Virus record (IMG/VR): IMGVR_UViG_3300015245_000078
Coordinates: 1-23,949 of that record
DNA from: a virus
DNA length: 23,949 bases
Reading direction: 5' to 3' (one strand)
Under the pieces are notes generated by a model. That model did not search any database and had not been told where the DNA came from. It was given only the letters and a program-made list of their open reading frames with translations. This document shows positions 17,588 to 22,958 of this stretch, piece after piece (the first letter of the stretch is position 1; every line of letters begins with the position of its first letter). Made by a program: the position numbers and the translations under genes.

Positions 17588-17664
17588 CAATTTGGTACTT
17601 GCAATCCCGCTTATGTTGGTAGATGCTAAATAAGTATGAATAGAAAAATGATACCAACCAACTA

Positions 17665-17673
17665 TGTTACAAT
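17665..17673 (+). promoter_or_regulatory. Rightward extended -10 promoter-like motif
   Basis: TGTTACAAT is an extended -10 with 5 of 6 bases matching TATAAT. No -35 match is found at 16-18 bp. Predicted start near 17680 puts the strong hairpin at 17700-17734 only 20 nt into the transcript, and the structured segment at 17756-17862 after it. Confidence 0.45.
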
Positions 17674-17699
17674 AGCCTTGTACCATTTTTCTTACATAC

Positions 17700-17734
17700 C
17701 CAAAACCCCGCTAGGAGACTAGCGGGTGTTTTGG
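17700..17734. terminator. Strong 15-bp hairpin, probable bidirectional terminator or attenuator
   Basis: CCCGCTAG (17707-17714) pairs with CTAGCGGG (17719-17726) around a GAGA loop. The stem continues outward with CAAAAC plus C17700 against GTTTTGG, with one bulged T at 17727. A second T-run (TTTT at 17735-17738) follows on the plus strand, and GTTTTGGG follows on the minus strand. An alternative pairing TAGGAG (17712-17717) with CTCCTA (17741-17746) would disrupt the hairpin, so a switch is conceivable. It separates the leftward and rightward arms. Confidence 0.65.
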
Positions 17735-17755
17735 TTTTGGCTCCTACCATAATGT

Positions 17756-17862
17756 CGCAGCCGGCCTAAAGAGCTGCGCACTAAACCGGTAACCTCGCGA
17801 AGGGAACGGCAAAGGGCAGGCAAACAAGGCTGTGTGCGTTTCCAGCTGGAGTGCACACAGCC
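17756..17862 (+). ncRNA. Candidate structured RNA in the divergent region
   Basis: Three elements follow one another. First, CGCAGC/GCTGCG (17756-17761 with 17773-17778) carries an 11-nt loop whose CGG could pair with CCG near 17786, a possible pseudoknot. Second is a small CCT/AGG hairpin at 17793-17803. Third is a perfect 10-bp stem GGCTGTGTGC/GCACACAGCC (17828-17837 with 17853-17862) capped by TCC-AGCT-GGA. There is no sensible reading frame here and no U-tract after the last stem. It may be a leader acting on transcription, or a separate small RNA. The strand is assumed from the upstream promoter-like motif. Between 17863 and 18011 I see nothing clear. Confidence 0.4.
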
Positions 17863-18011
17863 AACGTCTTAGCTTTATTACTCTCGGGTATAAACACGAG
17901 GCTTGTTTGCCATGCACTCGAACTTTTACATCTAAAAACGCCTCTATATCTTCTACCTACCCCTCTCCGTATTCCTGTTCAGCTAAACAACAAAGGTTAG
18001 TACCTAGTACA

Positions 18012-18778: not shown

Positions 18779-18807
18779 TTGACAAGTTAATAACATGAGC
18801 GTAGTAT
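18779..18807 (+). promoter_or_regulatory. Main rightward early promoter (TTGACA-N17-TAGTAT)
   Basis: A perfect -35, a 17-bp spacer and a 4-of-6 -10 predict a start near 18814. CATGAGCG fills the 3' half of the spacer (18794-18801), so a protein bound there would block polymerase. The transcript would begin with the GTAACC/GGTTAC hairpin. It would carry the 95-aa gene, the large structured RNA, the methyltransferase-like gene and RNase H. Confidence 0.6.
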
Positions 18808-18813
18808 GTGAAT

Positions 18814-18830
18814 GTAACCAAAAAGGTTAC
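18814..18830 (+). repeat. Perfect short hairpin GTAACC-AAAAA-GGTTAC at predicted transcript 5' end
   Basis: A 6-bp stem with an AAAAA loop lies at the predicted start of the early transcript. It could protect the mRNA 5' end, or act as a DNA operator; compare 18012-18036. Confidence 0.5.
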
Positions 18831-18929
18831 GCAAAAAAGCACTTTAACAACCAGACTAGCACCAATTGCGAAGCCGCCTTGGCCGCTTCCGACAGGTGCC
18901 TCTGGTTCGTGCTCAGGAGACCATACAAA

Positions 18930-18980
18930 ATGCTACACTACTGGATCATCAAACTAATAAAACGGCTTGTAGAAGGCTAG
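18930..18980 (+). CDS. Possible 16-aa amphipathic peptide
   Basis: ATG at 18930 has AGGAGA at 18915-18920 (9 nt spacing) and encodes MLHYWIIKLIKRLVEG. Hydrophobic residues alternate with Lys/Arg as in a membrane-active amphipathic helix or a leader peptide. The stop lies 22 nt before the ATG of the 95-aa gene, inside the predicted early transcript. Length is too short for statistical support. Confidence 0.35.
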   Translation: MLHYWIIKLIKRLVEG

Positions 18981-19002
18981 TAAACTAAGGGGAGAATTAA
19001 AA

Positions 19003-19290
19003 ATGCGCAAACTATACTTGGATCCACAAAAACTTGCTGAATCCGAAAGAGGCAACAAAATAGTAAAGGATTTCATGAATAACCCTACGGCACTTGCTTA
19101 CAATATCGAAAAAGTAGCCGTGGTGCACGTCACCAAAAACTACGGCAACGAAGCAATCTATCCAGCAAACGAGGCTTCCAAGATCTTTGCCAGGATTGCT
19201 AGCACAAAGACACTGACTCGGGAGACCATTGCGCTCATCAAAAAGCTGGGCTACCGTATTGATGTCGAAGCTAGCACGCCAGAACTTTAA
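19003..19290 (+). CDS. Unknown 95-aa early protein
   Basis: The start has AAGGGGAG at 18987-18994 with ideal spacing. The protein begins MRKLYLDPQKLAESERGNKI and continues with NPTALAYNIEKVAVVHVTKN, YGNEAIYPANEASKIFARIA and a helical C-terminus (TKTLTRETIALIKKLGYRID). It looks like a compact alpha/beta protein with no membrane segment or Cys/His cluster. I do not recognise the family. It is the first full gene behind the TTGACA promoter and is followed directly by the large structured RNA, so an early role, possibly connected with that RNA, is worth considering but unproven. Confidence 0.75.
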   Translation: MRKLYLDPQKLAESERGNKIVKDFMNNPTALAYNIEKVAVVHVTKNYGNEAIYPANEASKIFARIASTKTLTRETIALIKKLGYRIDVEASTPEL

Positions 19291-19295
19291 TAACC

Positions 19296-19683
19296 GTCCT
19301 GGTGTCAGGACAGCTCCGTGTGCGGTAACCCCACCCCCCTCGCGCGGAGCTTCCCTGGCAACAGGGCACTAAAGGTGTCGAAATCGAGACCTTTACATGG
19401 CGATGCAGCCGGGACGCCTACCCGGCTGAGGCAACATAACCCAAACCCGATTGTTGCTACGTGATAGGTTTGGGTCGAGGGTTGAAGTCCCTCCATCGCC
19501 TTGCAACTCCGGCGCGGCATTAGTGATTAGTAATGGTACTTTAATCAAATAAGCCGCGCCGGTAGATAGCAAACTAGTGAGCACTGCGGGGCGTGCAAAC
19601 GTCCAGTACCTTAAGCACACTACAACAGAGTGCAATGCGTTAAGCATAGGGACGGTAGGCCCCACCCGGCCGTCCCGCAGTGT
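19296..19683 (+). ncRNA. Large multi-helix structured RNA, about 390 nt, family unknown
   Basis: Nearly every part of this non-coding stretch pairs with itself. The helices are: GTCCTG/CAGGAC (19296-19311); AGCTCCGTG/CGCGGAGCT (19312-19320 with 19343-19351); CCCTG-GCAA-CAGGG with a GNRA loop (19353-19366); and TAAAGGT/ACCTTTA (19370-19376 with 19389-19395). Next comes the tRNA-like module (19399-19500). A perfect 10-bp CCGGCGCGGC/GCCGCGCCGG (19509-19518 with 19553-19562) has nested TGATTA/TAATCA. Then come a CGT-GCAA-ACG hairpin (19592-19601), ATGC/GCAT (19635-19647), and a long-range CACTGCGGG/CCCGCAGTG (19582-19590 with 19674-19682). No group I or II intron core, tmRNA or RNase P signature is seen. 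It resembles large ornate phage RNAs such as GOLLD or ROOL only in character. Plus strand assumed from the operon. Confidence 0.7.
19399..19500 (+). ncRNA. tRNA-like module with pseudoknot in place of the anticodon arm
   Basis: GGCGATG (19399-19405) pairs with CATCGCC (19494-19500) as a 7-bp acceptor-like stem. Two bases later comes GCCGGG/CCCGGC (19408-19426) with a 7-nt loop, in the D-arm position. GAGGG-TTGAAGT-CCCTC (19477-19493) is a 5-bp stem with a 7-nt T-loop-like loop, joined to the acceptor strand without a gap, exactly as in tRNA. The loop keeps T54, T55 and A58 but has G at position 56. Between D and T arms lie two interleaved stems, GCAACA/TGTTGC (19431-19436 with 19452-19457) and CCCAAACC/GGTTTGGG (19440-19447 with 19467-19474), an H-type pseudoknot. 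There is no CCA end and no anticodon loop, so it is not a normal tRNA. Confidence 0.6.
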
Positions 19684-19699
19684 CCATTACAACAGAAAG

Positions 19700-19747
19700 A
19701 TGAAAAATGAACTCGACGCCACCAATAACATCCAAGAGAGTGACTGA
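19700..19747 (+). CDS. Possible 15-aa leader peptide coupled to the methyltransferase gene
   Basis: The frame encodes MKNELDATNNIQESD and ends in TGA overlapping the next ATG (TGATG). That geometry typically couples translation of the downstream gene, which itself has only a weak AGAG ribosome site. The peptide's own ribosome site (AGAAAG) is weak too, so it may be coincidence. Confidence 0.3.
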   Translation: MKNELDATNNIQESD

Positions 19748-20358
19748 TGAAAATCCTTAACCTCTTTGCCGGTATTGGCGGCAATAGAGCGCTCTGGGGC
19801 AATGACCACGAAATAACCGCAGTCGAAAACGTGGAAGCAATCGCTGACGTCTACCGTCAACTGTGGCCTAATGACACGGTTGTCGTGGCGGACGCGCACC
19901 AGTATTTACTCGACCACTACAAGGAGTTTGATTTTATTTGGTCATCGCCGCCGTGCCCGACGCACTCAAAAACAAATCTCTTTTTGAATGCCAAGGGCTA
20001 CGTGCGTTATCCAGACATGACGCTGTACCAAGAGGTTATATTTTTGCAACATTTTTGTTGTGTTCCTTGGGTCGTGGAGAATGTGATTGCCTATTACAAA
20101 CCGCTTATACCGCCAACACGAGAACTTGCTCGGCACTATTTTTGGAGTAACTTCCACTTGGGGAAGTTCTACAATCCAACAAACTTGACACTCCAAGATG
20201 CCGGGATTAGGCAACTAGAACGCGGCTATGGCATTAAACTGCCAGCAGGCACAGCAAGCGACAAGCGCAAGCTCCTACGCAACGTTGTCATCCCGGAGCT
20301 TGGGCTGCATGTATTTAACTGCCGAGATAACCTAAAACAAAAGACGTTACCCCTATGA
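19747..20358 (+). CDS. Compact DNA C5-cytosine methyltransferase-like protein, 203 aa
   Basis: Motif I is MKILNLFAGIGGNRALWG (FAGIGG at 7-12), for S-adenosylmethionine binding. ENVEAI (27-32) fits the acidic motif II. The catalytic PC motif is SSPPCPTHSKTN (C70), and motif VI is VVENV (E111). The C-terminal RKLLRNVVIPELGLHVF (174-190) fits motif X. The region between VI and X is very short and lacks an evident QxRxR motif VIII and a full target-recognition domain, as in other small phage-encoded members. It probably methylates phage DNA, perhaps against host restriction, but activity is uncertain. The stop overlaps the RNase H start (ATGA). Confidence 0.75.
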   Translation: MKILNLFAGIGGNRALWGNDHEITAVENVEAIADVYRQLWPNDTVVVADAHQYLLDHYKEFDFIWSSPPCPTHSKTNLFLNAKGYVRYPDMTLYQEVIFLQHFCCVPWVVENVIAYYKPLIPPTRELARHYFWSNFHLGKFYNPTNLTLQDAGIRQLERGYGIKLPAGTASDKRKLLRNVVIPELGLHVFNCRDNLKQKTLPL

Positions 20359-21478: not shown

Positions 21479-21703
21479 ATGGACGAGAAAAAATATCAGC
21501 GCATCATAAAACAGATAAAAGCGGTTGAACGTGCCCACTGTAATTGCAAGCGCGAGCGGCTGACCCGAGCAATCCGGGAACTGGAACGCTTACGGGACAA
21601 TGAAGACATCACGCTCAGCCGCACCGGGTATATTTACATCGAAGAGCGATTGGAAAAACTTAATAGCAAGCTAAAAAGGAGCCGATACCATGGCAGATTA
21701 TAA
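21479..21703 (+). CDS. Unknown 74-aa basic helical protein
   Basis: I use the ATG at 21479, one base after the SSB stop; longer in-frame starts lie inside the SSB gene. The product (MDEKKYQRIIKQIKAVERAH CNC..) is a helical, Lys/Arg/Glu-rich protein, likely a coiled coil. It has a CNCK motif at about 21-24 and an IYIEERLEKLNSKLKR C-terminal helix. No strong ribosome site is present, so translation is probably coupled to the SSB gene. Its end overlaps the start of the PcfJ-like gene by 14 nt. Function unknown. Confidence 0.6.
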   Translation: MDEKKYQRIIKQIKAVERAHCNCKRERLTRAIRELERLRDNEDITLSRTGYIYIEERLEKLNSKLKRSRYHGRL

Positions 21704-22958
21704 CGGTTATGCAAAACATATAGGTGCGCCACAGAAAGTGCTTACTTGGATTACTGCAAGAGTGGAACCCTACCTCAAAGACCATTCTGAAAACCAAGGA
21801 GAAATTGAACACATCGTTGACTACTTAGCTTCTCCGGATGCCCCCAACAACATTACCGCCATGACTTACGAGCAGGCCACACAAAATGCCGAGAAGTGGC
21901 TAAAAACGCTCCAAAAACGTGGTGAATATATCAAAGAAGTGGAGGCAGATATCGAGGTCGTACTGGACTTTGAAGACGGCTTTAAAATTGTAAAGCTCAT
22001 CGGCAAAAACGCCTTTGATCGTGAAGGCTACCTGATGGCCCATTGCGTTGGCTCATACTACGAACGCTGTAACTCTGGGAAAACAGAAATATATTCTTTG
22101 CGTGACAAGAACAATATGCCGCACGCTACCATGGAAAAAGACCAACAGGTCAAGGGCAAAGGTAATGGCGACATTCACCCTAAGTATGTTGGCTATGTTG
22201 TAAAATTCTTGGAACACGTCGGTATGACTGTGGGCGACAGCGAAATGCGCCATCTCGGCTATATAAATGTGGAGCGTTTTAAGAGCGAATTAGCCAAAAA
22301 CACTGACTATTTTAACAGTAAATATGTACCGACAAGCCAAAAACTGTACGACCGCGATGGGGACGAATTTGCCAGTTTTGAGCTTCTAAATGTTATTCCC
22401 TTACTCACTGTTTATAATGAAAAAATTAAGATCAATTTTGAACTTCCTTCGTTCATTAAACTGTCATTCGAGCGGCTGGTTAAGAAGATAAAAGCTACAA
22501 AGGGATCGAACGCTACGAGTGGCAATTACGCCCCCTCTGCTACGAGTGGCTATGGCGCCCCCTCTGCTACGAGTGGTGATCGCGCCCCCTCTGCTACGAG
22601 TGGTGATTACGCCCCCTCTGCTACGAGTGGTGATTACGCCCCCTCTGCTACGAGTGGCTATGGCGCCCACTCTGCTACGAGTGGTGATCGCGCCCCCTCT
22701 GCTACGAGTGGCTATGGCGCCCACTCTGCTACGAGTGGTGATGACGGAATAGCGGTAGCTATAGGTCGGAAGGCCAAGGCAAAAGCGTCTCTAGAGTGCT
22801 TCATCGTACTCGCCGAATGGCATGAGGGCCAAAAATTCACCGATGCCAAACCACTGACAGTTGTATCTGCTAGAGTAGATGGCAAGAAAATTAAAGCTAA
22901 CCAGTGGTACAAACTTGTAGATGGCAAGTTTGTGGAGACGGATGACAGTAACGAGTAA
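21690..22958 (+). CDS. PcfJ-like protein fused to nonapeptide repeats and DUF7666-like tail, 422 aa
   Basis: Residues about 100-178 carry the PcfJ-type core: GYLMAHCVGSYYERCNSG (113-130), TEIYSLRDKNNMPHATME and QVKGKGNGDIHPKYVGYVVK. After a linker, residues 275-346 hold eight tandem nonapeptides on the pattern ATSG(D/Y/N)xAxS. A beta-rich C-terminus follows (GIAVAIGRKAKAKASLEC.. IVLAEW .. ARVDGKKIKANQWYKLVDGK). This repeat-plus-tail order matches the phage/bacterial DUF7666-type proteins I know of, in which short repeats resemble a beta-helical stack. PcfJ is named from a conjugative plasmid gene; its molecular role is unsettled. The start has AAGGAG upstream, within the preceding gene. It is probably an early protein, function unknown. 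Confidence 0.75.
   Translation: MADYNGYAKHIGAPQKVLTWITARVEPYLKDHSENQGEIEHIVDYLASPDAPNNITAMTYEQATQNAEKWLKTLQKRGEYIKEVEADIEVVLDFEDGFKIVKLIGKNAFDREGYLMAHCVGSYYERCNSGKTEIYSLRDKNNMPHATMEKDQQVKGKGNGDIHPKYVGYVVKFLEHVGMTVGDSEMRHLGYINVERFKSELAKNTDYFNSKYVPTSQKLYDRDGDEFASFELLNVIPLLTVYNEKIKINFELPSFIKLSFERLVKKIKATKGSNATSGNYAPSATSGYGAPSATSGDRAPSATSGDYAPSATSGDYAPSATSGYGAHSATSGDRAPSATSGYGAHSATSGDDGIAVAIGRKAKAKASLECFIVLAEWHEGQKFTDAKPLTVVSARVDGKKIKANQWYKLVDGKFVETDDSNE
22512..22727 (+). repeat. Eight in-frame 27-bp tandem repeats within the PcfJ/DUF7666-like gene
   Basis: Each unit starts GCTACGAGTGG and ends CCCTCT or CACTCT. A ninth, partial copy follows at 22728. Units differ at only a few bases, which change the residues at positions 5, 6 and 8 (NYAP, YGAP, DRAP, DYAP, DYAP, YGAH, DRAP, YGAH). 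Near identity at the DNA level means recent expansion by slippage or recombination. Confidence 0.9.

Follow-up and report, generated by a model that had tools for sequence, protein, structure and literature searches.

The early operon of the virus IMGVR_UViG_3300015245_000078 contains a large non-coding structured RNA of ~395 nt, located between a gene for a 95-aa protein and a methyltransferase-like gene. This RNA folds much more stably than expected by chance, has no match among the catalogued RNA families, and is a candidate for a new kind of phage RNA of which only one copy is known. We favor, tentatively, the idea that it is a phage-encoded RNA with a tRNA-imitating core, which acts in trans as a tRNA mimic; a cis-acting role in the early mRNA is almost as likely.

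Genome setting and folding of the element

The window (the whole stretch of DNA that was analysed, which is the virus record of 23,949 bases) carries its capsid, portal and terminase genes on the − strand, while the early genes are read rightward from the + strand. The capsid and portal are of the SU10 type, and the terminase and capsid have a distant likeness to those of Pelagibacter and Manatee Spring phages. Based on the capsid protein, the closest relatives in the collections are G001 (37 kb, 74% identical) and G002 (14.8 kb, 71%); a third, C92 (a contig of 37.6 kb, capsid 71% identical), comes from a bin of a groundwater metagenome that is labelled Poribacteria. An in-frame TAG in the C92 portal, considered as a case of stop-codon recoding, is merely the end of the gene. 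Positions 21690-22958 of the window encode a PcfJ-like protein with tandem ATSGDYAPS-type repeats.

The features discussed below are the following.

18779-18807, + strand: early promoter-like site (TTGACA-17-TAGTAT, from a consensus scan), probable start of the RNA-bearing transcript
19003-19290, + strand: 95-aa gene preceding the RNA; its family of small phage proteins, with homologues in IMG/VR and INPHARED, has no known function
19296-19689, + strand: whole structured RNA element (z = −9.4), + strand favored, helices kept in a 1.3-kb context
19296-19367, + strand: 5' domain, a 6+7+11 bp rod or else several consecutive hairpins, of which one has a GCAA loop (z = −5.5)
19370-19395, + strand: hairpin of 7+3 bp (z = −4.6)
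19399-19500, + strand: tRNA-like domain (descriptor test; domain z = −4.6)
19406-19428, + strand: 8-bp hairpin (loop ACGCCUA, pairing probability 1.0) where a tRNA has its D arm
19430-19475, + strand: probable H-type pseudoknot, with stems 19430-19436/19452-19458 and 19439-19447/19467-19475, where a tRNA has its anticodon arm
19501-19572, + strand: hairpin domain with a perfect 10-bp stem, 19509-19518/19553-19562 (z = −5.6)
19575-19689, + strand: 3' domain of several helices (z = −4.6), with 19575-19587/19677-19689 as the closing helix and a GCAA tetraloop at 19595-19598
19747-20358, + strand: short C5-methyltransferase-like gene of 203 aa downstream of the RNA (Pfam DNA_methylase, 2.8e-07; PHROG DNA methyltransferase)

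The minimum free energy of 388 nt of the element is −187.2 kcal/mol, compared to −133.6 ± 5.7 in 100 dinucleotide shuffles, none of which folds as well (z = −9.4); the final helix stretches the 3' end to 19689. The five sub-domains are individually significant, with z from −4.6 to −5.6. A scan of the region from 16.0 to 23.9 kb with a 140-nt window shows the folding beginning just past the 95-aa gene and weakening ahead of the methyltransferase gene. The main helices have probabilities of ~0.95-1.0, and the same holds when they are folded inside the 18813-20100 context. Neither strand of the element has a noteworthy coding frame, and a 90-aa antisense frame which lies over it has no phage match. 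The large folded non-coding RNA which the first-pass annotation had placed between these two genes is therefore real, and its folding energy is not that of an ordinary sequence. It had been described as "almost fully base-paired": the strong folding stands, but the wording is somewhat strong, since ~68% of the bases are paired.

The perfect 10-bp and 9-bp stems noticed at first are those of the hairpin domain and of the probable pseudoknot, the latter with P = 0.98. The second stem of the pseudoknot, in which GGCAACA pairs with UGUUGCU, consists of six Watson-Crick pairs and one G-U pair and is equalled by ~3% of shuffles (p about 0.03), so that the pseudoknot is plausible but not established. 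As for the two GCAA tetraloops that had been proposed, the predicted fold includes the one in the 3' domain (P = 0.83); the second caps a local hairpin, CCCUG-GCAA-CAGGG, which loses to the rod of the 5' domain by ~10 kcal/mol (−44.9 for the rod, against −34.9 kcal/mol for three hairpins).

The reverse strand folds less well relative to shuffles (z = −5.3), which points to RNA of the + strand, the reading strand of the flanking genes. It is in the 5' and 3' domains that the two strands differ most (−4.7 versus −0.1 and −3.5 versus −0.7). This strand preference argues against a structure that works at the level of DNA, such as the hairpins of a replication origin or palindromes bound by proteins, as does the presence of G-U pairs in the predicted helices (10 of 132). 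The sequence does contain several perfect inverted repeats and folds well with DNA parameters too (z = −10.5), but we consider this the least probable of the explanations discussed here.

Transcription and the possibility of a cis-acting role

On the + strand, neither a promoter-like nor a terminator-like site flanks the RNA, so that it is probably co-transcribed as part of an early polycistronic transcript. The promoter-like site upstream of the operon comes from a scan whose sites are, as a whole, no more numerous than in shuffles; G001 likewise has TTGACA-17-TAGTAT ahead of its early genes. The ATG of a 61-aa frame (18795-18980) sits inside this site and the region folds as a leader, which is why the frame is probably not a gene. 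The leader has z = −3.4 over 18813-18945 and z = −4.6 over 18801-18940. Ahead of the late operon, on the − strand, the segment 17620-17735 contains a terminator-like hairpin (17707-17726) and a long hairpin (z = −8.3 on the − strand); further hairpins are found at 17730-17925 (z = −2.7 on the − strand). On the other side of the RNA, a 15-codon frame (19701-19748) starts just after the last helix and overlaps the start of the methyltransferase gene (TGATG), an arrangement which suggests that the two may be translationally coupled.

The RNA could be a cis-acting element which sets the stability, the read-through or the translation of the downstream genes (methyltransferase, RNase H and ssDNA-binding protein) in the form of an antitermination leader, a riboswitch-like leader or a stabilising intercistronic structure, and this is a serious possibility. 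It agrees with the position of the RNA, which implies co-transcription, and with its having neither a promoter nor a terminator of its own. The last helix ends at 19689, only a few nucleotides upstream of a stretch rich in purines and of the short frame mentioned above, and the same phage has structured leaders at the start of the early transcript (18813-18925) and ahead of the late genes (17620-17735). However, the RNA is larger and more complex than usual mRNA leaders, no catalogued leader or riboswitch family matches it, relatives with a similar operon start lack it, and a tRNA-like acceptor/T arm would have no obvious role in such an element.

A tRNA-like domain in the center of the element

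The first-pass annotation did not describe one domain of the element. In the segment 19399-19500, a 7-bp stem (GGCGAUG/CAUCGCC, 19399-19405/19494-19500) stacks like an acceptor stem, without linker, on a 5-bp T arm (19477-19493) whose loop is UUGAAGU. The T arm has the tRNA-type G53-C61 pair, U54, U55, a purine at position 57, A58 and a pyrimidine at position 60; position 56 is a G, where tRNA has a C. D and anticodon arms are absent, and the 8-bp hairpin and the probable pseudoknot take their place. A contact between GC of the hairpin loop and UG of the T loop may replace the G18-U55 and G19-C56 pairs.

A descriptor of this acceptor/T-arm arrangement was composed after the sequence had been seen, with base 56 left free because the domain has a G there. 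It finds one site in the window (19399-19500) and none in 6000 mononucleotide or 10,000 dinucleotide shuffles of the RNA. In 1.75 Mb of other strand sequence it finds 14 sites, 12 of which are tRNA genes according to ARAGORN (ten in the tRNA cluster of L106, one in L103 and one in L114); the other two, in L059 and L011, are atypical tRNA-like elements. With the loop relaxed to any 7 nt, 61 of 1000 shuffles fit, and the tRNA-type loop thus carries much of the weight. The best match of a single-sequence model of the domain in a 5.5-Mb genome is a true tRNA-Met, and a genuine phage tRNA-Leu has an identical 17-base T arm. Taken with the specificity of the descriptor, these matches indicate that the central domain is probably derived from a tRNA or mimics one.

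The acceptor stem is not followed by an RCCA or CCA end. Instead, UUGC comes next and pairs into the adjacent helix, which makes processing and charging like those of a tRNA unlikely.

The atypical L011 element (2636-2726) has an acceptor, a D-arm-like part, a T arm and an anticodon region that is long and unusual, and is called by neither ARAGORN nor Rfam. The L059 site (around 2359-2451, − strand) matches the Rfam tRNA model at 27.7 bits, just under the cut-off, and comes directly after the apparent end of an HNH endonuclease gene.

Searches for known families and homologues

None of the 4227 models of Rfam 15 matches at gathering cut-offs, nor is there a match at E ≤ 10 on a 761-base region. 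At E ≤ 10 this includes the tRNA model (RF00005) and the models of group I and group II introns, tmRNA and RNase P, whose signatures had also been judged lacking at first sight. ARAGORN finds no tRNA or tmRNA gene in the window, and no tag reading frame or message part of a tmRNA was found. Run singly, the GOLLD model (RF02032) gives no match at E ≤ 10. The ROOL model (RF03087), also run singly, gives no match either, but this result is weaker, since the same run was silent in every control genome and its sensitivity is unproven. The likeness to GOLLD and ROOL that had been proposed is a resemblance, and kinship with them is not supported.

No second member of the RNA was found by any search route, in collections from which close relatives of this record may be missing. 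Homologues were found neither by blastn among phages and plasmids, nor with single-sequence covariance models (R1 and R2) on the collected loci and 50 viral records, or on the metagenome-assembled genome that contains C92 and the genomes of its phylum, of which there were only 3. Scanning IMG/VR for exact patterns of the T arm and of the pseudoknot gave matches which are not homologues according to the model search. No comparable folded stretch was found in G001, G002 or C92, and none of the IMG/VR and INPHARED homologues of the 95-aa gene was seen with this RNA after it. Both the RNA and the methyltransferase are missing from the equivalent position of G001 and C92, ahead of the RNase H gene, so that this slot seems to be a position for variable cargo.

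An association of such RNAs with the methyltransferase family was considered and dropped, because the folded stretches near its homologues are scattered, without a fixed place, and because the tRNA-like piece of L011 has no ornate folding (z = −0.85). One such stretch, large and non-coding (2380-2700, z = −7.3), lies upstream of a methyltransferase homologue in another IMG/VR phage (L013) and does not match Rfam.

A single, sporadic copy with a tRNA-like piece could also be folded debris of a decayed mobile intron, ribozyme or tRNA, devoid of present function, and the relative G002 does carry a tRNA-Trp gene. We regard this as improbable: every domain has near-perfect helices, which are not expected after decay, and there is no signal of an intron, RNase P or tmRNA. 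Both flanking genes are complete, and an interrupted gene is not indicated, as the homologues of the 95-aa protein match to near its C-terminus and those of the methyltransferase align from residue 1.

Proposed role and comparison with known RNAs

In the reading that we tentatively favor, the RNA, which lies between two early-operon genes, would act as a + strand molecule; it would be made from the early promoter and would persist as, or be cut from, the polycistronic transcript. Its core would imitate the tRNA half made up of the acceptor and the T arm, and a hairpin and a probable pseudoknot would stand in for the decoding half. It may then work in trans by occupying a host factor which recognises the elbow or the acceptor arm of tRNA; the ribosome, a tRNA-processing enzyme or a tRNA-directed defence nuclease are conceivable targets. 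Its location next to a methyltransferase, as early cargo that is optional, would be in keeping with such a role. Counted against it are the lack of homologues, of a CCA end and of a promoter or terminator of its own, the G at position 56 and the post hoc nature of the descriptor. That the RNA represents an undescribed phage class, in which a tRNA acceptor/T arm has been grafted on a pseudoknotted body as a mimic directed against a host tRNA-dependent system or defence, is a more doubtful proposition. Some defence systems are evaded or countered by phage tRNAs (PMC11555353), and phages also employ RNA mimics against CRISPR (PMC10651486). As the half of the tRNA that is retained is recognised by many host factors, it offers a direct handle for naming the target; if the tRNA-mimic reading is true, phages remodel parts of tRNAs into non-decoding RNAs.

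We know of no described function for GOLLD and ROOL, which are also large structured phage RNAs. The RNA of the window resembles them in being large, ornate, phage-borne and non-coding, and in its probable pseudoknot, GNRA loop and connection to tRNA. It could be an RNA-only scaffold or cage former which works like GOLLD or ROOL and is unrelated to them in sequence, but this is rather unlikely. Neither covariance model matches, and its ~395 nt compare with the sizes of about 660 nt and over 800 nt discussed in PMC12286853, where many GOLLD members exceed 800 nt. GOLLD and ROOL adjoin tRNA islands (PMC12286853), whereas the RNA described here sits in an early protein operon, in a window that has no tRNA genes.

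Antitermination RNAs of the HK022 put or EAR type are structured RNAs located inside early or long operons, and are much smaller than ~395 nt. The RNA of the window is similar in being a structured RNA inside an operon, but it is far larger and has no match to them.

The phage tRNA genes share with it the 7-bp acceptor stacked directly on a T arm of 5 bp whose loop is UUNRANY, up to the identity of the T arm with that of the tRNA-Leu. In contrast to them, it has no D arm, anticodon arm, C56 or CCA, it is embedded in a larger fold, and it is below detection as a tRNA by ARAGORN and Rfam.

A tmRNA retains the two tRNA arms discussed here, acceptor and T arm, but has other structure on the anticodon side, plus a pseudoknot. 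The RNA of the window differs from it in that it has no message part, tag frame, CCA end or model match, and the ends of its acceptor are buried inside the element, but it has the same general plan: acceptor and T arm kept, anticodon side replaced, and a probable pseudoknot.
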